A stretch of 37,300 nt of DNA from Methanospirillum stamsii. Lineage in GTDB: Archaea > Halobacteriota > Methanomicrobia > Methanomicrobiales > Methanospirillaceae. How positions within the stretch are numbered: the first letter of the stretch is position 1; every line of letters starts with the position of its first letter. The stretch is taken from contig NZ_QGMZ01000017.1 in the NCBI RefSeq assembly GCF_003173335.1, positions 1-37,300 on the forward strand, read 5' to 3'. This document shows, in pieces, positions 4,154 to 36,261 of this stretch. The notes under the pieces are model-generated. The model did not search any database, was not told the DNA's origin, and saw only the letters and a program-made list of their open reading frames with translations. The translations under genes and the position numbers were made by a program.

Positions 4154-4999
4154 ATGAAGGCGATACCTTCGATTTTTTGTATTTTATTCGTCTTAATGGC
4201 GACATTACTTGTGTGTGGATGTACTTCTGGCAATCAGTCGGATAATCTTGTACAGGAACCAGAAAAAGAGCAGATTATCGATACGAATTCTTCATCTGCA
4301 AAGACTCTTCTGGTCTATTGCGGTGCAGGCATGAAAGAGCCGATGGAAGAGATTGCAAAGATGTATCAAGAGAAAGAGGGAACAAAAATCGAATATACCT
4401 ACGGAGGTTCAGCTCAGTTGCTCAGCCAGATTGAACTCTATAAGAAGGGTGATGTCTATATGCCTGGTGCACGTTCGTATATTCAATCGGCCATGGATAA
4501 AGGATTTGTTGACAAGAGTGAAGATATCGTGTACCATGTCCTTGCAATTGCTGTACCAAAAGGAAACCCCGGCAATATTACCGGAATTCAGGACCTTGTC
4601 CGTCCGGGTGTAAGGGTTGCCATTGGTGAACCATCCGGCCCGGCAGTAGGAACCGCTTCTCAAAAGATGCTGGAGAAAAATAAACTCTGGAATGAAACAC
4701 AAAAGAATATCGTAGTCAAGTCTGGTACGGTCAATGAACTTCTCGTATATGTTGCAATGAACCAGGCCGATGCTGCACTTATCTGGACAGAACTTTTAAA
4801 CCCGGAAAGTATGGAACTTGTTGAGATACCCAAAGAGATTGGTAAGGTAGATGTTGTTCCTATCGGTACCCTGACATTCTCAGAAAACAAAGAAGATGCT
4901 GAGAAATTTATAAATTTTGTTGCCTCTGATGAAGGAAAAGAAATTTATAAGAAACATGGATTTGAGATCTATCCCTTAGCTAAATATGGGGATGCTTAA
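4154..4999 (+). CDS. modA: Molybdate/tungstate ABC transporter substrate-binding lipoprotein
   Basis: This 281-aa protein begins with a hydrophobic signal and a lipobox-like VCGC, placing the lipid-modified cysteine at about residue 23. The mature domain matches the ModA/WtpA group: LLVYCGAGMKEPMEEIA at the start of lobe 1, the oxyanion-site neighbourhood YTYGGSAQLLSQIE, the AIGEPSGPAVGTAS segment, and a C-terminal GKEIYKKHGFEIYP typical of ModA. It captures an oxyanion outside the membrane and delivers it to the ModB/ModC-like proteins encoded after it. Molybdate versus tungstate cannot be told from the sequence; methanogens need either for formylmethanofuran and formate dehydrogenases. A tandem palindrome lies upstream. 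A sulfate-type or other oxyanion substrate is less likely. Confidence 0.85.
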   Translation: MKAIPSIFCILFVLMATLLVCGCTSGNQSDNLVQEPEKEQIIDTNSSSAKTLLVYCGAGMKEPMEEIAKMYQEKEGTKIEYTYGGSAQLLSQIELYKKGDVYMPGARSYIQSAMDKGFVDKSEDIVYHVLAIAVPKGNPGNITGIQDLVRPGVRVAIGEPSGPAVGTASQKMLEKNKLWNETQKNIVVKSGTVNELLVYVAMNQADAALIWTELLNPESMELVEIPKEIGKVDVVPIGTLTFSENKEDAEKFINFVASDEGKEIYKKHGFEIYPLAKYGDA

Positions 5000-5058
5000 T
5001 TTCCTTTTTTTAAATCTGAATTTTTGCCTGTAACTATCATCTCACGGGAGAGGTTTTT

Positions 5059-5604
5059 ATGAAATTATCGCAGGAACATAGGGTAAAGTGGAAAGATACT
5101 GATATTGTGTTTCATCCCATTGGGATAATTCATTCTGAACACACTGAACACGAAAATACTCCGGTTCAGGGTATCTTTAATCCGTCTGTAGGATATATAG
5201 AAATATTTGATGAATTTAAGGAAGGGTTGGTTGATATTGAATCATTTTCCCATATTTACGCATTTTATTTTTTTCATCGTGCGACTGGGAAGAACCTGGT
5301 CCAGAAACCTTTCCTGGATGGTGAAAAAGAACGGGGTATCTTTGCAATACGGCATTTTAACCGGCCAAACCCTATGGGAATGTCAATAATGGAATTGCTT
5401 TCTGTGGATGATACTATTCTGAAGGTATCGGGTGTTGATGTGCTTGACGGAACTCCACTTCTTGACATAAAACCGTATGTCCGGCAGTTTGATCACCGGG
5501 ATGAGGTAAAGTGTGGCTGGGTTGATAACCAGCATATGGATGACATCGCCGAATGGAACAGCACTCCAAAAGAACTCCGGAACAGGGAGCGGGTTAAAAA
5601 ATGA
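5059..5604 (+). CDS. TsaA/TrmO-family (UPF0066) SAM-dependent methyltransferase
   Basis: The 181-aa protein matches the TsaA/TrmO fold. It has FHPIGIIHSEH near the N-terminus, VDIESFSHIYAFYFFHRA, then FAIRHFNRPNPMGMSIMEL and DVLDGTPLLDIKPYV, which are the family's conserved blocks. Bacterial TrmO N6-methylates t6A37 of threonine tRNA. Archaeal members are largely untested and some are found with metal genes. A strong GGAGAGG site precedes the ATG at 5059, and the stop overlaps the modB start by 4 nt (ATGA), so it is co-translated inside the Mo/W importer operon. That position suggests a link to molybdenum or tungsten metabolism, but a housekeeping tRNA role is equally possible. Confidence 0.85.
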   Translation: MKLSQEHRVKWKDTDIVFHPIGIIHSEHTEHENTPVQGIFNPSVGYIEIFDEFKEGLVDIESFSHIYAFYFFHRATGKNLVQKPFLDGEKERGIFAIRHFNRPNPMGMSIMELLSVDDTILKVSGVDVLDGTPLLDIKPYVRQFDHRDEVKCGWVDNQHMDDIAEWNSTPKELRNRERVKK

Positions 5605-6395
5605 GTGACATCAGAAATTCATGGCTCCGGAATGCCACTATTGGTATGAGTTTTCTGCTCACCTTTTTCATAATCGTTCTGCTCCTTCTCATCGTGACAA
5701 AACCTTCTTTTGAAACACTCTATACATCTATTACAAGTCCGGAGATCCAGTTTGCAATCTTTATGAGTCTTGGAACCTCAATAATTTCAACGATTCTTTG
5801 TATTCTGATAGCAGTTCCGGCTGCATATGCTCTTGCCCGGTACTCATTTTTTGGAAAAGGGGCGGTAAATGCCATTCTTGATATGCCGCTAGCTCTCCCT
5901 CCGCTTGTAGCAGGTCTCGGATTACTTTTATTCTTTGGAACCACCGGTTTTGGAAATGCGTTAGCAGATATGGGTCTGGTTTTTGTATTTACTCCGCTTG
6001 GTATTATTGCAGCCCAGTTTTTTGTGAATTTTCCTTATATGCTGAGGATCATGCGTTCAACTTTTGAATCTATCAGCACCCGCTATGAATTTGTCGCAAA
6101 AACATTGGGCTGTACAGATCTCCAGGCAGTATGGCGGGTAACTCTCCCCATGGCTGGTTCTGGGTTTTTTGCAGCATCGGTGATTACCTGGGCAAAAGGA
6201 ATTGGAGAGTTTGGAGCTGCCCTTTTAATTGCCGGAGCAATCCAGTGGAAAACCGAAACCCTTCCGATTGCCTTATTCCTGAATATGTCCTGTGGCAATC
6301 TGAACATGGCAATATCAGCCGCAACGATTCTCATTATTATTTGTATAGTGTCTCTGTACATTTTTGAGCGGTACGGTGGAGCATCGCGATTATAG
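5601..6395 (+). CDS. modB: Molybdate/tungstate ABC transporter permease
   Basis: A 264-aa inner-membrane permease with about six hydrophobic segments (near residues 13-34, 50-75, 90-115, 125-145, 185-205 and 235-255). Family motifs include LPLVAGLGLLLFFG-like text in the second third and the EFGAALLIAGAIQWKTETLP block near residues 204-223, diagnostic of ModB/WtpB-type permeases. It forms the membrane channel for the oxyanion bound by the ModA-like protein and docks the ModC-like ATPase. It starts inside the tsaA stop (ATGA overlap) and is followed after 11 nt by modC, so the operon is intact. Confidence 0.88.
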   Translation: MSDIRNSWLRNATIGMSFLLTFFIIVLLLLIVTKPSFETLYTSITSPEIQFAIFMSLGTSIISTILCILIAVPAAYALARYSFFGKGAVNAILDMPLALPPLVAGLGLLLFFGTTGFGNALADMGLVFVFTPLGIIAAQFFVNFPYMLRIMRSTFESISTRYEFVAKTLGCTDLQAVWRVTLPMAGSGFFAASVITWAKGIGEFGAALLIAGAIQWKTETLPIALFLNMSCGNLNMAISAATILIIICIVSLYIFERYGGASRL

Positions 6396-6406
6396 GGTTT
6401 TGATGT

Positions 6407-7453
6407 ATGTTACATACTGAAAATTTATCAAAAGATATGGGCGAGTTTATTCTTCGGAATGTAACGCTTGATATTACTCCCGGAGAATACCTGGTAATCA
6501 TTGGCCCTACCGGAGCCGGAAAGACCATTCTTCTTGAAACAATTGCCGGGTTTTACCCTCCCGACTCGGGTAAAATAATCATGGACGGTCGGGATATTAC
6601 AAACATTCCTCCAAAAGACCGGAATATCTGTATGGTATACCAGGACTATATGCTCTTTCCCCATCTCACGGTAGAGGAAAACATCGGATTTGGATTAAAG
6701 ACCAGGAAAAAGGATCCTGAGTACATCAGAAAGAAGACAGTTGAAATGGCCCGGCTGCTTAGCATTGATCATCTGCTCCACCGAAAACCTGAAACATTGA
6801 GTGGAGGAGAACAACAACGGGCAGCAATAGCCCGTTCTCTTGTCATGGAACCTAATCTTCTGCTCCTGGATGAACCATTGAGTGCTCTTGATGGTCAGAC
6901 AAGAGATAAACTCCGGACTGAACTTCGAAGGATTCATGATATTACGAATGTGACCGTTGTCCATATTACTCATAATTTTGAGGAGGTTTTCTCACTGGCA
7001 GACAGGGTGGCAATCATGAATAAGGGAGAAATAGTTCAGATTGGAAATCCTGATGAGGTGTTCAGAAAACCGGAATCAGAGTTTATTGCTTCATTTACTG
7101 GTATGGAGAATATTTTTAAGGGAAGTTGTTCTCATCAGGATGGTATATCTGCCATCAAGATTGATGGTCACATAGTCTATTCAGCAACCTGCTTGGGAGA
7201 AAGAGAGGTATATGCGACAATACGTCCGGAGGATATTCTTCTATCAAAAGATCCCATTGTTTCTAGTGCACGTAATTCATTCAAAGGCAGGATCACTGAC
7301 ATAAAAAATAACGGGATGGTAATTAAAGTTACCATAGATGTCGGGATACCGGTGGTCTCGATAATGACCCGAAGAGGATGGGATGAACTGCAGATGAATG
7401 AGGGAGAAGAGGTTTATCTGACTTTTAAAGCATCAGCGGTTCATGTTTTTTAA
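6407..7453 (+). CDS. modC: Molybdate/tungstate ABC transporter ATP-binding protein
   Basis: The 348-aa ATPase has Walker A GPTGAGKT at residues 33-40, a Q-loop at VYQDYMLFPHLTVEENI, signature LSGGEQQRAAIARSL near 131-145, Walker B LLLLDEP near 151-157 and the H-loop THNFEEV. The last 110 residues form a TOBE/MOP-like accessory domain typical of ModC, WtpC and PotA-type ATPases, where oxyanion can allosterically inhibit transport. It powers uptake with the preceding permease. The start is the ATG at 6407, with a competing ATG out of frame at 6403. A T-rich tract after the stop (ttcttttttt, 7460s) may end the operon. Symbol assignment follows its operon partners. Confidence 0.85.
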   Translation: MLHTENLSKDMGEFILRNVTLDITPGEYLVIIGPTGAGKTILLETIAGFYPPDSGKIIMDGRDITNIPPKDRNICMVYQDYMLFPHLTVEENIGFGLKTRKKDPEYIRKKTVEMARLLSIDHLLHRKPETLSGGEQQRAAIARSLVMEPNLLLLDEPLSALDGQTRDKLRTELRRIHDITNVTVVHITHNFEEVFSLADRVAIMNKGEIVQIGNPDEVFRKPESEFIASFTGMENIFKGSCSHQDGISAIKIDGHIVYSATCLGEREVYATIRPEDILLSKDPIVSSARNSFKGRITDIKNNGMVIKVTIDVGIPVVSIMTRRGWDELQMNEGEEVYLTFKASAVHVF

Positions 7454-16174: not shown

Positions 16175-17311
16175 ATGGTTAGTCAAACCGAGATGAACGG
16201 AAAATATAGTAAAAGGGAGAAAAAAAGTAAAAGTTCTCTCTTAATGCTCATAATTTCTTTAGGTGTCCTTGTTAGTTGCTTTAGTATGATAGTATCGGGT
16301 GCTGAAGATAACTCCGGTACAAAAATGGTATTAGATCAACGGGGAGAGATGGTGACAATTCCTGAACATGTGGAACGGGTAATTACCATACCAATACCCG
16401 CTGCTTCGATGGTGTATACATTAGATGGTGATGGGAGCAGACTGGTTGGTATGAATCCCTCTTCTATGGCTGCTATTAAAAATGGAATTCTTGGGAAGAT
16501 GGATCCGGATCTGCTTACCATTGAGACAAATTTCATTCAGGGAGGTATGTTTGAACCAAATGTTGAAGAAATCCTGAAATTGGATCCTGATGTTGTTTTC
16601 CAGTGGGCACAGTACGGTGAAGAACTTTACAAACCCTTGGAAGATGCCGGGATTCCAGTTATTTGTCTTAAGTATGGTACTCAGGAGGACTTGGAAACCT
16701 GGATTAAATTATTTGGAGAAGTGTTAGACCGGCAGGAACAAGCTGACAATCTGATTACCTATCAGCAGGGTATGAGTGCGAAAATTAAAGAAAAAACCGC
16801 AAATATCGCTGAAACTGATAAACCTCGCGTTCTTTCTCTTCCTTATGGTGATCAACTGACCGTGAGTGGTAGCGGAACTTACAATGATTATTATTTCGGA
16901 CTTACTGGTGCTAAAAACGTCGCTTCAGAAGTCCCTGGTTCAAGTACCCAGGTAAGTATGGAGCAGATCATCAATTGGGATCCGGAGATCATCTATATTG
17001 GTAACTTTGATGATTTAACTCCACAGGATATTCTTGAAAACCGTATTGATGGACAGGACTGGGCAGGAATTGATGCGGTGAAGAATGGACGTGTTTACAA
17101 AGTTCCCCTTGGCGGGTATCGGTGGGATCCACCAAACCAGGAATCTCCTCTGATGTGGGAATGGTTAATGGAAATTCAACATCCTGAACTCTTTGATTTC
17201 AATCTCCGGGAGGATATGAAAAAGTTTTATAAGGTTTATTATGATTATGACCTTAATGATGAAGAAATAGAGGAAATTTTATTCACGAATTTGAATAACG
17301 CAATCGTTTGA
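16175..17311 (+). CDS. FecB-type substrate-binding protein of the nitrogenase-like operon (PBP-C)
   Basis: The 378-aa protein has a charged N-terminus and a hydrophobic segment (LLMLIISLGVLVSCFSMIVSG, about residues 21-41) acting as signal or anchor, then a class III PBP fold: PEHVERVITIPIPAASMVYTL, NVEEILKLDPDVVFQW, IPVICLKYG, a long helix, IINWDPEIIYIG and KNGRVYKVPLGGYRWDPPNQES. The final FYKVYYDYDLNDEEIEEIL is usual in siderophore and heme binding proteins. It differs clearly from the PBP-A/B/D/E group and is co-transcribed with permease, ATPase and the reductase subunits (1-nt gap to the permease), so it is likely the dedicated receptor of this transporter. Start could also be the internal ATG at 16193. 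Confidence 0.85.
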   Translation: MVSQTEMNGKYSKREKKSKSSLLMLIISLGVLVSCFSMIVSGAEDNSGTKMVLDQRGEMVTIPEHVERVITIPIPAASMVYTLDGDGSRLVGMNPSSMAAIKNGILGKMDPDLLTIETNFIQGGMFEPNVEEILKLDPDVVFQWAQYGEELYKPLEDAGIPVICLKYGTQEDLETWIKLFGEVLDRQEQADNLITYQQGMSAKIKEKTANIAETDKPRVLSLPYGDQLTVSGSGTYNDYYFGLTGAKNVASEVPGSSTQVSMEQIINWDPEIIYIGNFDDLTPQDILENRIDGQDWAGIDAVKNGRVYKVPLGGYRWDPPNQESPLMWEWLMEIQHPELFDFNLREDMKKFYKVYYDYDLNDEEIEEILFTNLNNAIV

Positions 17312-17312
17312 T

Positions 17313-18344
17313 ATGCCTGGAATCAACCTGAGAACTCTGATGAGTTCTCCATATTTTTTTATTCTTCTTCCATTGGCAGTCTTTTTTTTCTCACTTGTTT
17401 GTGGGAGATATCCTGTTGATATTAAGAATGTATTCGGGATTCTTATCTCGCAGGTTTATCCGGTAACACCTTTCTGGCCAGAAATTGATGAACGGGTAAT
17501 TATTAACCTTCGTCTACCTCGTTTGCTAATAGGTATGCTGATTGGAGCAGGATTAGCTGTTTCCGGAGCTGCTTTTCAGGGTATTTTTAAAAATCCTCTG
17601 GTGAGCCCCCATATTCTCGGAGTAGCAGCAGGTGCAGGATTTGGTGGCGTATTAGCCATGTTATTGTCTCAAAGTTCGTTGTTAATATTTATTTTCGCAT
17701 TCATATTTGGAAACCTGGCAGTTCTGGCTGCATATTTCCTTGCAAGAAAGGATAGTGTCACACCCGTTCTGGTTCTCGTTCTTGCCGGTGTAATTATCAG
17801 TGCATTTTTTACTGCAATGATATCTCTCCTGAAATTATGTGCAGATCCTCAGGATCAATTGCCCGGAATTGTGTTCTGGCTCATGGGAAGTCTCATCTCT
17901 GCTAATTATGAGAAATTCGGGTTAATAGTTATCCCGTTTCTTATTTGCGTTTATATCTTGTGGAGACTTCGTTGGAGAATCAATGTTCTTTCTCAAAGTG
18001 ATCAGGAAGCAAGAGCCCTTGGTGTAAACGTTGAGTATGATAAATGGATAATAATTCTTTGTGTTTCAGTAATTGTTGCTCTGGCAGTATCTGTTAGTGG
18101 AATTATTGGGTGGGTAGGACTTGCAATCCCTCATATTGCACGAATGATAGTAGGATCAAATCATCTCTTTCTGATTCCTGCATGCATCTCTCTGGGGGCC
18201 GCTTATCTTGCTTTTGTTGATACCATTGCCCGGACTTTAACTCCTTATGAGATCCCTCTGGGGATATTAACTGCAATTGTTGGTGTGGTTATTTTTGGAT
18301 ATCTCCTGAAAAGAAATCAAAATGGTGGTTGGAATGAATATTGA
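17313..18344 (+). CDS. FecCD/BtuC-family ABC transporter permease
   Basis: A 343-aa membrane protein with about ten hydrophobic segments, the BtuC/FecCD topology. Family landmarks are INLRLPRLLIGMLIGAGLAV near residues 63-82, GAAFQGIFKNPLVSPHILGV with the conserved NPL, VLAGVIISAFF, VFWLMGS, and near the end SGIIGWVGLAIPHIARMIVG. It forms the import channel for a siderophore-, heme- or corrinoid-like ligand. It starts 1 nt after the PBP-C stop and its 3' end overlaps the ATPase gene. It is the only permease of this class in the window despite seven candidate binding proteins, so it may be shared. Confidence 0.92.
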   Translation: MPGINLRTLMSSPYFFILLPLAVFFFSLVCGRYPVDIKNVFGILISQVYPVTPFWPEIDERVIINLRLPRLLIGMLIGAGLAVSGAAFQGIFKNPLVSPHILGVAAGAGFGGVLAMLLSQSSLLIFIFAFIFGNLAVLAAYFLARKDSVTPVLVLVLAGVIISAFFTAMISLLKLCADPQDQLPGIVFWLMGSLISANYEKFGLIVIPFLICVYILWRLRWRINVLSQSDQEARALGVNVEYDKWIIILCVSVIVALAVSVSGIIGWVGLAIPHIARMIVGSNHLFLIPACISLGAAYLAFVDTIARTLTPYEIPLGILTAIVGVVIFGYLLKRNQNGGWNEY

Positions 18345-19164
18345 AATGAAAAATGGAATGTTTAAGTATGGAACAGGAAAAACCATCTTTAAAAATTTAA
18401 ATTTTAACGTAAATAATGGTGAAATTCTCTCAATTTTAGGTCCGAATGGCACTGGGAAAACAACCCTCTTAAAATGTCTGCTTGGAATTCATCAGATTTC
18501 CGGCGGTTCTGTTTATATTAATGGACTAGTGCAGGATAAAGAAAAGAAAAATTGCCATATTGGATATGTGCCTCAAATTCACCAGAGTGTATTTCAATAC
18601 ACTGTCCTTGAAATGGTCCTCATGGGAAGGACCCGGTTTATCAGAAGGTTTTCTTCTCCATCTCATGATGATTGGAATTGTGCTCGTGAATCCCTGGAAA
18701 AAGTTGGAATGGCAGGATTTGCAGATAGGATCTTCTCTGATTTAAGCGGAGGAGAAAAACAGATGGTTCTCATTGCCCGTGCATTAGCATCACAGGCTGA
18801 TTGTATCATTTTTGATGAACCTACCTCGGCACTTGATTACCGGAATCAGTATCATGTTCTTGATCTTATGATCTCTCTGAAACGAGAAGAAAACCTTGCA
18901 ATAATCATGACAACACATCAGCCTGAACATGCAATGTATCTCTCTGATAAAGCACTTCTTATGGATCGTGATGGGAATAGTTGTTTTGGTGAATCTGACA
19001 AGGTATTATCAGAGAATAACCTGAATGCCACCTATGGAATGAATATTGGTATTTTCTCAATTCCTCACAATAACGCCCATCTTAAAGCGATTATTCCGCT
19101 TGTTTCGAATCCTCTCCATCGTTCGTTATCCGGAAATAATTCAGGAAATGAGGTTGCGTCATGA
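18322..19164 (+). CDS. FecE/BtuD-family ABC transporter ATP-binding protein
   Basis: The 280-aa ATPase shows Walker A GPNGTGKT at residues 40-47, signature [15 protein letters not shown] near 142, Walker [13 protein letters not shown] near 161 and an H-loop TTHQPEHAM. It energises the FecCD-type permease just upstream. Translation may begin at 18322 or at the ATG 18334 (MNIEMKNG); either overlaps the permease end. A C-terminal extension of about 40 residues after the core domain is usual for FecE proteins of archaea. Its last codons overlap the NifH-like gene start by 4 nt (ATGA), firmly linking transport and reductase in one translational unit. Confidence 0.92.
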
Positions 19165-19919
19165 AAAAAATTGCAATCTATGGGAAAGGTGGGATTGGTA
19201 AATCAACCGTTACAAGTTCATTATCTGCAGCATTGTCAGTTCTTGGGTACCGGGTTATGCAGATTGGGTGTGATCCAAAAGCTGATTCAACTATAAATCT
19301 GACAAATGGTCAACGAGTTACTCCGGTTATGAATTATTTACGGGAATTTCATTCATGTTCTTCGCTTGATGAGATTAGTCTTGTAGGATATAATGGAATT
19401 GTATGTGTTGAAGCCGGAGGTCCAATTCCGGGTCTTGGATGTGCCGGTAGGGGAATTATTACAACCTTCAACACTCTGGAATCTCTCCAGGCTTATGAAA
19501 TTTTCAAACCGGATTTCGTTTTGTACGACGTTCTGGGTGATGTTGTCTGCGGAGGCTTTGCCATGCCTCTTCGTGAGGGGTATGCCGATGAGGTCATTAT
19601 TGTTACATCCGGAGAAAAGATGTCACTTTATGCTGCGAATAATATCAAAAAAGCTCTGGATAACTTTGAAAATCGGAATTATGCAAAATTGAAAGGACTT
19701 ATTATGAATTGCCGTAACATTGAGAATGAAGAAGAGATAGTAACTCAATTTGCCAAAGAAATTGATAGTCCTATTATCGGGAATATCCCTCGTTCGTCAA
19801 GTATCCAGTACTGGGAAGAGCGAAACATGACTCCGATCCAGGGAGATGTTAATTGTATAATTTCATGCTCTTTTCTTGAGATTGCCTCACAAATTGCTGG
19901 AACCGGGAAGGAAAACTGA
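19161..19919 (+). CDS. NifH/BchL/CfbC-like Fe protein (ATP-dependent reductase component)
   Basis: The 252-aa protein carries the P-loop [10 protein letters not shown] (residues 7-16), switch-type GCDPKADST (36-44), and both 4Fe-4S ligands of the Fe-protein dimer: Cys94 in GLGCAGRGI and Cys130 in [14 protein letters not shown]. All residues needed for MgATP-driven electron delivery are therefore visible. It is shorter than true NifH (about 275-295 aa). It lies between a FecE ATPase and two nitrogenase component-1-like genes, without nifI, nifE, nifN or nifB. It would donate electrons to the NifD/NifK-like complex. Alternatives are a CfbC-type F430 reductase or the methylthio-alkane reductase MarH group; the neighbours argue for an uncharacterised group. 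Confidence 0.92.
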
Positions 19920-21220
19920 TGGAAGCGGAAATTATATCTCTGGATGATATTCTGGTTTCCAAAGAATCAGTTCACCCCCCTGGATTATCACCCGATTGTC
20001 TCCATTATTGTCCCCCCACATCAGCCGGATGGGGAATAGTAAGGGTTGCCCTGTTGGTTCCTGAATCAGCGATGCTCTTTGTTTCACCGTCCGGATGTGC
20101 CCGTCATGCAGCAATTGCAGGAATTCATCTCGGTTTCTGGGACAGGTTTTTTTGTTATCGGTTATCTGAAACTGATATTGTATCCGGAGCATATATGGAT
20201 AACATTCCCCGTGTATCCGAGGAGATATTACGTCGTACTGGGATGAAAGCCTTAATCATCTGTAGTACCTGTATAGATGACCTCCTTGGTTCGGATTATG
20301 ATAACCTGGTAGCAGAAATTGAGAGAAAAACAGGGATTCCAGTTCGATTATGCAGAATGGATCCTATCTGCATGCACACGCCCAATGCACCCCCCCTTAA
20401 AGTCCAGGAGACGGTATACAAGTTTTTGCAACCATCTGCCAAACATGACGATTCAATTAATATTCTTGGAAATTTTGCTAGCATAGATGAAACCAGTGAA
20501 TTTTATGAAGTACTATGCCAAACAAAAGACCGGGAAATTCGGCACATTACAAATTACTCATCTTATGAAGAATTTCAGGTAATGGCTACTTCATCATATA
20601 ATCTTCTCATAAAACCAGCAGGAATTCTTGCAGCACAGGATTTAAAAAACCGTTTGAATATCCCTTGGATTTCGGCATACCATTCATATGGTATTGAGCG
20701 TATTGATGGGATGTACCACATGTTTGAAAAAACATTCAATGAATCATTCGAGTTGGATGATTATCGGGATGAGGCCATTGATACAACAAAGTGGTTTACT
20801 GATGTCCATGGGGAATCAGTTTCGGTTGCTGTAGGTTCAACTGCGAATGCTGCTCCATTTGAACTGGCAAGAACATTTGTGGAAATTGGCATTGATGTTC
20901 CATATATATTTGCTGATGCTGTTCAGGAATGGGAAAAAACGCATGTACAATGGTTAAAAAAACACAATCCCTCTATGAAAGTTTTTTCATCAAGTCATCC
21001 GAAAATGGCTGATGCCCGGGATATGCAATTACATACGGATTACGCCATCGGGTTTGATGCAGGATATTATTGCCCTGGAGCTAAAACAGTGCCCTGGGGT
21101 CTGGAAAAACAACCCTTTGGGTATTCTGGTCTGATATCACTACTTCATGAGATGGATGCCGTGACTGATGTCCCACAGGATTTTAAATCTATGGTTTATG
21201 CTTCCGGCCTGGTGATTTGA
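19919..21220 (+). CDS. Nitrogenase component 1-like subunit (NifD/BchN-like)
   Basis: The 433-aa protein belongs to the nitrogenase component-1 superfamily. P-cluster-type cysteines are present: Cys27 and Cys31 in DCLHYCPPTSAGWG, Cys60 in SPSGCARHAA (like the NifD GxxGC) and Cys118 in CSTCIDDLLGSD (like NifD TCxxxxIGDD). I see no counterparts of the FeMo-cofactor ligands Cys275 and His442, so this is unlikely to fix nitrogen. A C-terminal YYCPGAKTVPWGLEKQPFGY adds another Cys in the likely substrate pocket. Its ATG overlaps the NifH-like stop by 1 nt. With the next gene it should form the catalytic heterotetramer that reduces an unknown, perhaps imported, organic or metal-organic substrate. 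Confidence 0.88.
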   Translation: MEAEIISLDDILVSKESVHPPGLSPDCLHYCPPTSAGWGIVRVALLVPESAMLFVSPSGCARHAAIAGIHLGFWDRFFCYRLSETDIVSGAYMDNIPRVSEEILRRTGMKALIICSTCIDDLLGSDYDNLVAEIERKTGIPVRLCRMDPICMHTPNAPPLKVQETVYKFLQPSAKHDDSINILGNFASIDETSEFYEVLCQTKDREIRHITNYSSYEEFQVMATSSYNLLIKPAGILAAQDLKNRLNIPWISAYHSYGIERIDGMYHMFEKTFNESFELDDYRDEAIDTTKWFTDVHGESVSVAVGSTANAAPFELARTFVEIGIDVPYIFADAVQEWEKTHVQWLKKHNPSMKVFSSSHPKMADARDMQLHTDYAIGFDAGYYCPGAKTVPWGLEKQPFGYSGLISLLHEMDAVTDVPQDFKSMVYASGLVI

Positions 21221-22405
21221 ATGGATAATATATCGGTATTTTTACCTCCGTTTTCTCCCGATTATTCCGGATTTTGTTCAGCTCTGTTTTCCCTGGATGG
21301 AATCCTTGTTATTCATGATGCCGGAGGATGTACCGGGAATTTTACTGCCTATGATGAACCACGGTGGTTTGGATCTTCATCACATGTTTACAGTTCAGGA
21401 CTTCGGGAGATTGATGCAGTAATCGGGGATGACCAGTTTTTCATTGAAAAGATAAACAAGATTGTTCGTGAGAGTGATAATCGATTTGTTGCACTTATCG
21501 GAAGTCCGGTCCCCACGGTAATCGGAACTGATTTTAAGGCCCTTGCTCATATTATCCGAACTTCAACAAAAGTTCCGGTAATTACTTTTGATGCAAACGG
21601 AATTGATTATTATGATGTCGGAGCATCTTCAGCTTTTCTTGCCATTGCAAAGAATTTTATTCTGGAATCCGGAGAGAAAATTAAAAATTCTGTAAATATT
21701 ATCGGAGCAACTCCGCTCGATTTAGGAAATAATGACCCGGAAAGGAGTCTTTGTTCTTTCATTAATGATGCAGGTTACACGGTTATTTCATGTTGGGGTG
21801 GTAACAGCAAAATTGATGCAATAATGCAATCTGGAAAGGCAGAATTGAATCTTGTTGTTTCACGTTCCGGTCTTGCCGCTGCCAGGTATATGGAAGAAAA
21901 ATATGGAATTCCTTATGTTACGGGTGTTCCAATCGGTGAATCAGCAGCAAAATTTTTTTCAGTCACTATTTCAGAATGTATTAAGGACTCTAAATCTCGA
22001 ATCCGGTTAAATAATCTTGATTTAGATAAATCCAAAAATAATGGCACGGCCTGCATAGTTGCAGATCAGGTAATCGGGAATTCATTACGAGAATGTCTAA
22101 TCTCTGATTTTGGATTCAGTGATGTCATTGTTTGTTCATTCTTTGAAATGGATTCAACTCTCTCAATTCCCGGAGATGTACATTTGAATTCAGAAGATGG
22201 TTTGGAAAATCTTATTTCTTCTGGATCATTTGATGTGATTGTTGGAGATCCTCTGATTCAACCCCTGATAGGTGATGTAAAATTAATTCCATTTCCACAT
22301 ATTGCCATTTCAAGTCGGATATTCTGGAATGATTCATTACAATATTTCGGGATTGAGGGAAGTAAATATCTGAAAAAATATTTAAATCCTTATCATGTTA
22401 CCTGA
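21221..22405 (+). CDS. Nitrogenase component 1-like subunit (NifK/BchB-like), reduced ligand set
   Basis: The 394-aa subunit begins directly after the previous stop codon. It has Cys19 (SGFCSALF) and Cys37 (DAGGCTGN, like the GxxGC of NifK), but the third position, where NifK has TCxxEVIGDD, reads GSPVPTVIGTD with Pro96 in place of Cys. The cluster it shares with the NifD-like subunit is therefore asymmetric or uses another ligand, reminiscent of DPOR, where an Asp of BchB replaces a Cys. Later Rossmann-like repeats (VNIIGATPLDLG, LNLVVSRSGLAAARYM) fit the three-domain fold. It ends the operon; PBP-D follows after 138 nt with its own promoter. Confidence 0.85.
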   Translation: MDNISVFLPPFSPDYSGFCSALFSLDGILVIHDAGGCTGNFTAYDEPRWFGSSSHVYSSGLREIDAVIGDDQFFIEKINKIVRESDNRFVALIGSPVPTVIGTDFKALAHIIRTSTKVPVITFDANGIDYYDVGASSAFLAIAKNFILESGEKIKNSVNIIGATPLDLGNNDPERSLCSFINDAGYTVISCWGGNSKIDAIMQSGKAELNLVVSRSGLAAARYMEEKYGIPYVTGVPIGESAAKFFSVTISECIKDSKSRIRLNNLDLDKSKNNGTACIVADQVIGNSLRECLISDFGFSDVIVCSFFEMDSTLSIPGDVHLNSEDGLENLISSGSFDVIVGDPLIQPLIGDVKLIPFPHIAISSRIFWNDSLQYFGIEGSKYLKKYLNPYHVT

Positions 22406-35502: not shown

Positions 35503-36261
35503 TTAATTATTTGGAATTTCTTTTATCAACGCCTCAATTGGGGCATACTGGCGGGTGATTGCATCACCAGAAAGACCTGTTGACAAAATATCTGGATCAT
35601 CAGGAATTTCTGCAATAATATTGCCTGGTTTAGAAAGCTTCTTACGAATTGTTGCACTCATTTCTGAATTAACCCGGTTTAAGATGAAATACAAAGATAT
35701 ACCCATTCCATCTGTTATGGTTGTAATTTTTTCTGCAAGTCCAACTGACTCAAATGAGGGATCGAGAACCATAAGGATCCCATCTGCTTCTTCATCAATA
35801 CCTCGTCCGAAATGTTCAATCCCTGCTTCCGTATCGGTAATTACGATATCATTTTCAGCAAGTTGTAATGACTGCAGGAATTGTCTGGAAAGCATACCCA
35901 TTGGGCAGGCACAACCTTCTCCAGAATGCTGAATTTTTCCGATTGATACTAATGCAATGTTATCCTTTCTTGAAACATAATCGGCTGGAATTGAGTCAAA
36001 TTTCCATGGTTCTTCGATAAGTTTTACTTTTGCATAATCCGGAGCAGCAGCCATGATCTTCTCCTTCATACCTGGTCTCCCCCCGAAATATTCCATCAGG
36101 TCGACAGGAGCATCAATTCCAATGAGCCGGTGAAGACCAATATTGGATTCATCTGTATCAACTACTAAAACCCGGAAATTTTTTCGGGCATATTCATGTG
36201 CAAGCATTGCTGTTAGGGTACTTTTTCCGCTACCCCCTTTACCACAGATAATTAGTTTCAT
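35503..36261 (-). CDS. CooC-like metal-insertion ATPase (MinD/ParA superfamily)
   Basis: The 252-aa protein has the deviant Walker A CGKGGSGKST (signature Lys8, P-loop Lys13), VVDTDESN after strand 2, and a CxC motif, Cys117-Ala-Cys119, in EGCACP. This CxC corresponds in position to the Cys pair of CooC (Cys112/Cys114 in the characterised protein) that binds Ni or Zn at the dimer interface. DTEAGIEHFGRGIDEEAD is the family's Walker B region. CooC inserts nickel into CO dehydrogenase; related ATPases serve other metalloenzymes. No CODH gene is in the window, so here it may serve the local metal pathway. It lies between PBP-G and a methyltransferase gene on one strand. Confidence 0.85.
   Translation of the reverse strand: MKLIICGKGGSGKSTLTAMLAHEYARKNFRVLVVDTDESNIGLHRLIGIDAPVDLMEYFGGRPGMKEKIMAAAPDYAKVKLIEEPWKFDSIPADYVSRKDNIALVSIGKIQHSGEGCACPMGMLSRQFLQSLQLAENDIVITDTEAGIEHFGRGIDEEADGILMVLDPSFESVGLAEKITTITDGMGISLYFILNRVNSEMSATIRKKLSKPGNIIAEIPDDPDILSTGLSGDAITRQYAPIEALIKEIPNN

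Follow-up and report, generated by a model that had tools for sequence, protein, structure and literature searches.

Nitrogenase-like enzymes catalyse some of the hardest biological reductions and, to our knowledge, several of their clades have no known reaction. We consider here an operon of the archaeon Methanospirillum stamsii in which genes for a nitrogenase-like reductase (NifH-, NifD- and NifK-like, hereafter H, D and K) follow those for an importer of the FecBCD/BtuCDF type. The operon lies at positions 16175-22405 of the + strand of contig NZ_QGMZ01000017.1 (assembly GCF_003173335.1). The whole stretch of 37,300 nucleotides analysed (positions 1-37300, the window) is the complete contig, in a genome totalling 3.74 Mb.

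Nitrogenase-like genes were already reported beside ABC transporters in Methanocorpusculum labreanum and in clostridia (Dos Santos et al., 2012; PMC3464626). In these proteins, two Cys are conserved in the D/E-like subunit and one in the K/N-like subunit. It was proposed that metal transport is coupled to cofactor assembly, and hydrogenase maturation genes were noted in Coprococcus (PMC3464626). The Group IV proteins of that study (Mlab_1039/1040, Dhaf_1539/1540), to which it assigned no function, share with the clade of the window the two conserved Cys in D, the one in K and the adjacency to an ABC transporter. The initial annotation of the locus, made from the sequence, presented it as the best candidate for an undescribed system. 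This wording is too strong because the co-location with transporters was part of the earlier report (PMC3464626). Beyond that report, the present analysis brings the breadth of the FecBCD linkage, the mutual similarity of the substrate-binding proteins (PBPs), genomes without another FecCD permease, a nickel-type importer as a substitute, and a linkage to HydEF and MoeA. No experimental work on the clade was found in the literature searched.

The HDK architecture is common to dark-operative protochlorophyllide oxidoreductase (DPOR, BchLNB), chlorophyllide oxidoreductase (COR, BchXYZ), MarHDK, IsrHDK and the operon of the window. Mar uses nitrogenase metalloclusters (PMC12552129). In Rhodobacter capsulatus, the importer SsuABC and isrHDK are both required for growth on isethionate (PMC11423573), which is a precedent for an importer feeding a nitrogenase-like enzyme. 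Isr, however, requires the radical S-adenosylmethionine (SAM) protein IsrB, and no radical SAM gene was recognised in the window. The importer MolBC-A of Haemophilus influenzae is of the same type as that of the operon, and its MolA is the closest characterised homologue of the PBP of the window; we know of no nitrogenase-like partner for MolBC-A.

The six open reading frames (ORFs), encoding PBP, FecC, FecE, H, D and K, are arranged head to tail exactly where the initial annotation had placed them. Recomputation of the junctions returned the reported gaps and overlaps, namely 1 nt for PBP-FecC, -23 for FecC-FecE, -4 for FecE-H, -1 for H-D and 0 for D-K. Pfam assignments of all six proteins exceed the gathering scores. 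The FecCD permease, the ABC ATPase and the Peripla_BP_2 protein make up a type II importer of the FecBCD/BtuCDF kind, and matches to PF00142 and PF00148, together with the component 1 fold, place H, D and K in the nitrogenase superfamily. Another gene for a FecB-type PBP starts 138 nt past the end of K. The operon is present in the metagenome-assembled genome (MAG) of Methanospirillum sp. STE_32 (G011), spread over two contigs, with D 89% and K 86% identical. Contamination of the assembly was therefore dropped as an explanation. In two genomes of the same order (about 1.8 Mb), the six genes are found in the same order at a D identity of 30%. Since both G011 and these two genomes share the operon, the pairing of HDK with the importer is more than chance.

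Linkage of nitrogenase-like (NFL) genes to the importer was then considered over a wider range. K patterns were used to collect loci from named genomes; for Bacillota and Chloroflexota, D profiles were run against samples of 398 and 251 genomes, respectively. Neighbouring genes were typed by protein comparison, and a locus was scored as linked when FecC lay no more than 6 kb away in the same orientation. Among the 27 loci of the clade with enough flanking sequence, FecC is linked in 17, including the window, two Methanocorpusculum-like genomes, Chloroflexota and Dehalococcoidia MAGs, Syntrophomonas wolfei and other Bacillota. One locus (L101) has a binding protein and an ABC ATPase only, and nine are without FecC (six HypDEF-linked loci, three of them also with HydF, and L085, L100 and L102). 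In a sister clade, linkage to FecBCD is found in 9/9 loci. The genome of the window contains 15 strong FecCD copies, so that a random 12 kb stretch would contain one about 5% of the time. The corresponding binomial probability of the linkage, about 1e-17, is indicative only, since the loci share ancestry and include some near-duplicates. No FecC was found in the Nif and Cfb loci of the same genome, nor in the Nif-type control loci L144 and L103. FecBCD linkage is kept in related genomes and across domains, and the loss of linkage that the initial annotation had named as a possible refutation was not observed. The early impression of a rare archaeal oddity, given by first D searches in relatives and phylum (four genomes), was overturned by the profile searches in Bacillota and Chloroflexota. 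Two details of the collection are worth recording. In L036, a transposase-like ORF separates FecC from FecE. L037 and L038 carry nearly identical operons, yet their MAGs are filed under Chloroflexi and Bacillota, respectively. This points to a binning error in one of the two, and the pair makes one count in any strict tally.

The genome of the window (G000) has other nitrogenase-family loci. A Nif set is found on contig C47, a high-scoring NifH-family gene, presumed to be CfbC, on C6 and a CfbD equivalog on C15. L024, on C52, belongs to the sister clade and is a third HDK cluster of nitrogenase-like type; it also holds several binding proteins, FecC, FecE and a DtxR-like ORF. An ORF of C52 was taken for DUF364 by eye; it has no NCBIfam match, and no paper treating DUF364 together with nitrogenase was found in the literature searched. 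L025, on C78, belongs to another clade and carries a NifH-NifD fusion and a NifK-like gene with FecBCD, ChlI/ChlD-like genes, a CbiS-type amidohydrolase and CobN.

Co-inheritance with the reductase is seen for the PBP and for a large part of the permease set. The PBP of the window is 33-46% identical (187-338 bits) to those of other NFL operons and scores at most 84 bits with the remaining PBPs compared, which came from the window and from the C52 and C78 loci. Similarly, its FecE is 36-44% identical to the FecE of other operons of the clade and at most 33% identical to those of C52 and C78. One starred clade unites eleven of the 16 NFL-linked permeases, from archaea as well as from bacteria, with the permease of the window just outside. 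Moreover, in two Bacillota genomes (G600 and G884), the NFL-linked FecCD is the sole full-scoring permease, G884 having in addition one partial match of 28 bits. The initial annotation had proposed that the reductase acts on what the transporter brings in. The resemblance of the PBPs across NFL operons and the genomes where the linked FecCD is the only full permease argue for this part of the proposal.

What the PBP binds may be approached through its relatives. The closest one of solved structure is PDB 4ovk (294 bits), and the closest characterised homologue in the PDB is MolA HI_1472 (93 bits), which binds molybdate and tungstate for a type II importer (PMC4031551). With the PBP profile, MolA reaches 175 bits, against about 50 for BtuF and for heme binders. 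One of the other PBPs of the window gave no MolA match in an equivalent search; the resemblance to MolA is thus not general among PBPs. Molybdate was not retained as an established ligand, the argument being a similarity in sequence of 93 bits.

Comparison with the known enzymes of the superfamily sets the reductase apart. H scores below the NCBIfam cut-offs (nifH, 307 bits for a cut-off of 394; CfbC, 307 for 402; BchL, 184 for 345; BchX, 176 for 331). D and K both match nifE best, though weakly, with 40 and 63 of the 505 bits required, respectively. The nitrogenase alpha-chain models give at most 53 bits with D and K for cut-offs of at least 486, BchN and BchB reach 26 of 420 and 53 of 490 bits, and the CfbD equivalog model matches neither D nor K. 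A quick tree was calculated from 75 D and K sequences with NifD/K/E/N, BchN/B, BchY/Z, CfbD and Mar as references, Mar being represented by fragments from PDB alignments (9fmg_A, 9d9u_C). In this tree, D of the window belongs to a clade of 22 rows (Shimodaira-Hasegawa-like approximate likelihood ratio test, SH-aLRT, 100) and K to one of 21 to 22 rows (SH-aLRT 98-100), both apart from Nif, Bch, Cfb and Mar. MarD groups near NifD, away from the proteins of the window. The placement inside the CfbCD, Bch, Mar or true nitrogenase clades that the initial annotation had set as the test of its proposal is thus observed neither in the scores nor in the tree. Membership of Nif was rejected on the missed cut-offs, the separate clades and the absence of ligands of the iron-molybdenum cofactor (FeMo-cofactor). 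For Cfb, the CfbC score, the lack of a CfbD match and the presence of K, where Cfb has a single catalytic subunit, led to the same decision. DPOR and COR were set aside on scores far under the BchL/N/B and BchX/Y/Z cut-offs and on separate clades, and Mar on the distance of D and K from the MarD/MarK fragments. By the tests run, H, D and K appear to be none of the known enzymes Nif, DPOR, COR, Cfb and Mar.

At the positions of NifD Cys275 and His442, the alignment shows a Lys and no His, respectively, in D, and the lack of FeMo-cofactor ligands noted in the initial annotation is borne out; likewise, no ORF for NifB, NifE or NifN was recognised in the window, in line with the claimed lack of cofactor assembly genes. 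Two Cys of D (Cys60 and Cys118, in a pattern resembling that of BchN) and one of K (Cys37) are invariant among relatives. Of 19 D-K pairs, three have three of the five Cys considered, nine have four and seven have five. Cys31 of D was discarded as a universal ligand, since only 8 of 21 relatives have a Cys there. As the invariant Cys align with cluster ligands of BchN and of NifE/NifN, we infer that a [4Fe-4S] cluster is held between D and K, which seems reasonable on the alignments. AlphaFold models of D (mean predicted local distance difference test, pLDDT, 86.9) and K (pLDDT 84.1) both have the nitrogenase component 1 fold. D is about equidistant from all references (template modelling score, TM, 0.6-0.7), and K is closest to the DPOR B subunits (TM 0.75-0.77), followed by NifN (0.71-0.74).

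The genes found next to other members of the clade offer further clues. In a Chloroflexota locus (L100:10532-17681), a nickel-type Opp/Nik importer begins within the K stop codon and is followed by a Fur-family gene; FecBCD can thus be replaced by a putative metal importer of an unrelated type. HydE and HydF belong to the operons of L097 and L098. In L089-L091, HypD, HypE and HypF lie between two HDK-type sets and are accompanied by HydF. In both groups, the scanned proteins exceed their cut-offs. MoeA-like proteins flank DK in L093, together with an HmdB-like radical SAM protein, with scores under the cut-offs; MoeA-like genes were seen only in L093 and L099. These Hyd, Hyp, MoeA-like and HmdB-like proteins of bacterial members are all factors of metallocofactor assembly. 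Such neighbours favour a role with metals or metallocofactors over one with an organic carbon or sulfur compound as substrate, with the reservation that what holds for one subclade may not hold for the next. In L085 (11276-14823), genes for a double-cubane-cluster reductase and its activase adjoin the nitrogenase-like genes. This pair is another ATP-driven low-potential system.

Taken together, we propose that a dedicated type II importer and an ATP-driven two-component reductase form a module in which the reductase acts on an imported metal complex and feeds cofactor assembly, a reading to which we give a probability of about 0.45. The PBP would bind a metal complex or an oxyanion outside the cell, and FecC and FecE would carry it into the cytoplasm. 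With ATP, the H dimer would send low-potential electrons to the putative [4Fe-4S] cluster held jointly by D and K. The D-K pair, devoid of FeMo-cofactor ligands and perhaps with an open cavity, might then reduce the imported complex, and the metal would be released or converted for metallocofactor assembly. Several points weigh against this proposal. Iron release from most ferric chelates needs no nitrogenase-level potentials. FecBCD is not obligatory, since no importer accompanies the six HypDEF-linked loci or L102 and that of L085 is of the sugar type. As the neighbours vary by subclade, the members of the clade need not all share one function. Finally, a single clade for all 16 linked permeases is weakly rejected (approximately unbiased test, AU, p 0.042; 0.071 without L093 and L099), from which it follows that the linked transporter was probably exchanged at times.

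Other explanations have to be weighed. The importer could take up a metal-tetrapyrrole whose ring HDK would reduce, as DPOR and CfbCD do. Such a tetrapyrrole or corrinoid reductase is suggested by the importer family, which includes the B12 importer BtuCDF, by the proximity of the K model to DPOR B subunits, and by the paralogous C78 cluster, which joins HDK and FecBCD with ChlI/ChlD-like proteins, CobN and an amidohydrolase weakly matching the CbiS model (82 of 250 bits). However, C78 is placed elsewhere in the tree, near L114, no tetrapyrrole gene could be recognised in the window or among the neighbours of the other loci of the clade, and the PBP profile favours MolA over BtuF and heme binders; we regard this explanation as doubtful. 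The tetrapyrrole-like substrate that the initial annotation had named as an option has no direct support at the locus, where the PBP is nearer to MolA than to cobalamin or heme binders, and bacterial relatives adjoin hydrogenase-maturation and MoeA-like genes. Somewhat more doubtful in our view is a NifEN-like scaffold for a Mo, W or other heterometal cofactor, with the importer providing the metal. The resemblance of the PBP to MolA, not shared by another PBP of the window, the MoeA-like proteins on both sides of DK in L093 and the fit of Cys60 and Cys118 of D and Cys37 of K to the NifE/NifN cluster positions all argue for it. Nevertheless, no NifB was recognised in the window, MoeA-like genes were seen only in L093 and L099, and the MolA similarity of 93 bits is, within so broad a family, too little to assign the ligand. 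In addition, the window already holds a ModA/WtpBC-type Mo/W importer (4154-7453).

A partner in hydrogenase maturation, which would provide hydrogenase cofactors with iron in reduced form or with a CO/CN-type ligand, would account for HydE/HydF in L097/L098, for HypD/E/F and HydF in L089-L091 and for the HmdB-like protein of L093. As the sequences linked to HydEF or HypDEF form separate subclades, and as no such genes were recognised in the window or beside HDK in the archaeal and Chloroflexota members examined, we place this explanation slightly lower still. Of the four, only mere co-location, by chance or through shared regulation such as metal-limitation control, with no common substrate, is considered unlikely: the 15 strong FecCD copies in Methanospirillum and the abundance of binding proteins in the window would make it conceivable, but the overlapping frames, the persistence of the arrangement across families and domains at 30% identity, the mutually similar PBPs and the genomes with the linked FecCD as sole full permease speak against it. 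The coordinates of the genes and residues on which these arguments bear are collected in Table 1.

Table 1. Genes of the operon and residues of H, D and K, in positions of the window.
Feature	Position	Strand	Description
FecB-type substrate-binding protein (PBP)	16175..17311	+	378 aa; Peripla_BP_2 97 bits
FecCD/BtuC-type permease (FecC)	17313..18344	+	343 aa; FecCD 287 bits
FecE/BtuD-type ATPase (FecE)	18322..19164	+	280 aa; ABC_tran 106 bits; 23 nt overlap with FecC
NifH-like Fe protein (H)	19161..19919	+	252 aa; Fer4_NifH 284 bits
H P-loop GKGGIGKS, residues 8-15	19182..19205	+	direct reading
H Fe-S Cys94 (GCAGRG)	19440..19442	+	direct reading
H Fe-S Cys130 (GDVVCGG)	19548..19550	+	direct reading
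NifD-like subunit (D)	19919..21220	+	433 aa; Oxidored_nitro 94 bits
D Cys31, possible extra cluster ligand	20009..20011	+	alignment: 8/21 relatives
D Cys60, NifD Cys88 / BchN Cys51 position	20096..20098	+	alignment: 21/21
D Cys118, NifD Cys154 / BchN Cys112 position	20270..20272	+	alignment: 21/21
NifK-like subunit (K)	21221..22405	+	394 aa; Oxidored_nitro 107 bits
K Cys19	21275..21277	+	alignment: 17/21 relatives
K Cys37, predicted Fe-S ligand	21329..21331	+	alignment: 21/21
K signature DEPRW	21353..21367	+	D, E, R invariant in 21 relatives; P, W in most

Around the operon, the window contains seven ORFs for FecB-type binding proteins, several SAM methyltransferases, a ZIP-family gene and two pairs of half-size ABC transporters. 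In G011, the second of these pairs directly adjoins K, and one of its subunits is 92% identical to its counterpart in the window. In the ModA-, WtpB/ModB- and WtpC-like molybdate/tungstate importer set mentioned above, a TrmO-like gene (5059-5604) lies between the binding protein and the permease. At 35503-36261, a P-loop ATPase of the MinD/ParA type (56 bits at best), which one might guess to be CooC-like, adjoins a methyltransferase and binding proteins.

With a dedicated importer in the operon, the search for the substrate is narrowed to the ligand of one PBP, and the long-open role of uncharacterised nitrogenase-like clades becomes a matter for a ligand-binding experiment. The recurrent links to HydE/HydF, HypDEF and MoeA-like proteins hint at an unknown metal-supply step for hydrogenase or related cofactors. 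Tentatively, and with less assurance than for the module proposed above, methanogens and anaerobic bacteria may couple uptake and very-low-potential reduction of a metal in one module whose product goes to metallocofactor assembly. If this is true, reduction of an imported metal complex would be a reaction class new to the nitrogenase superfamily.

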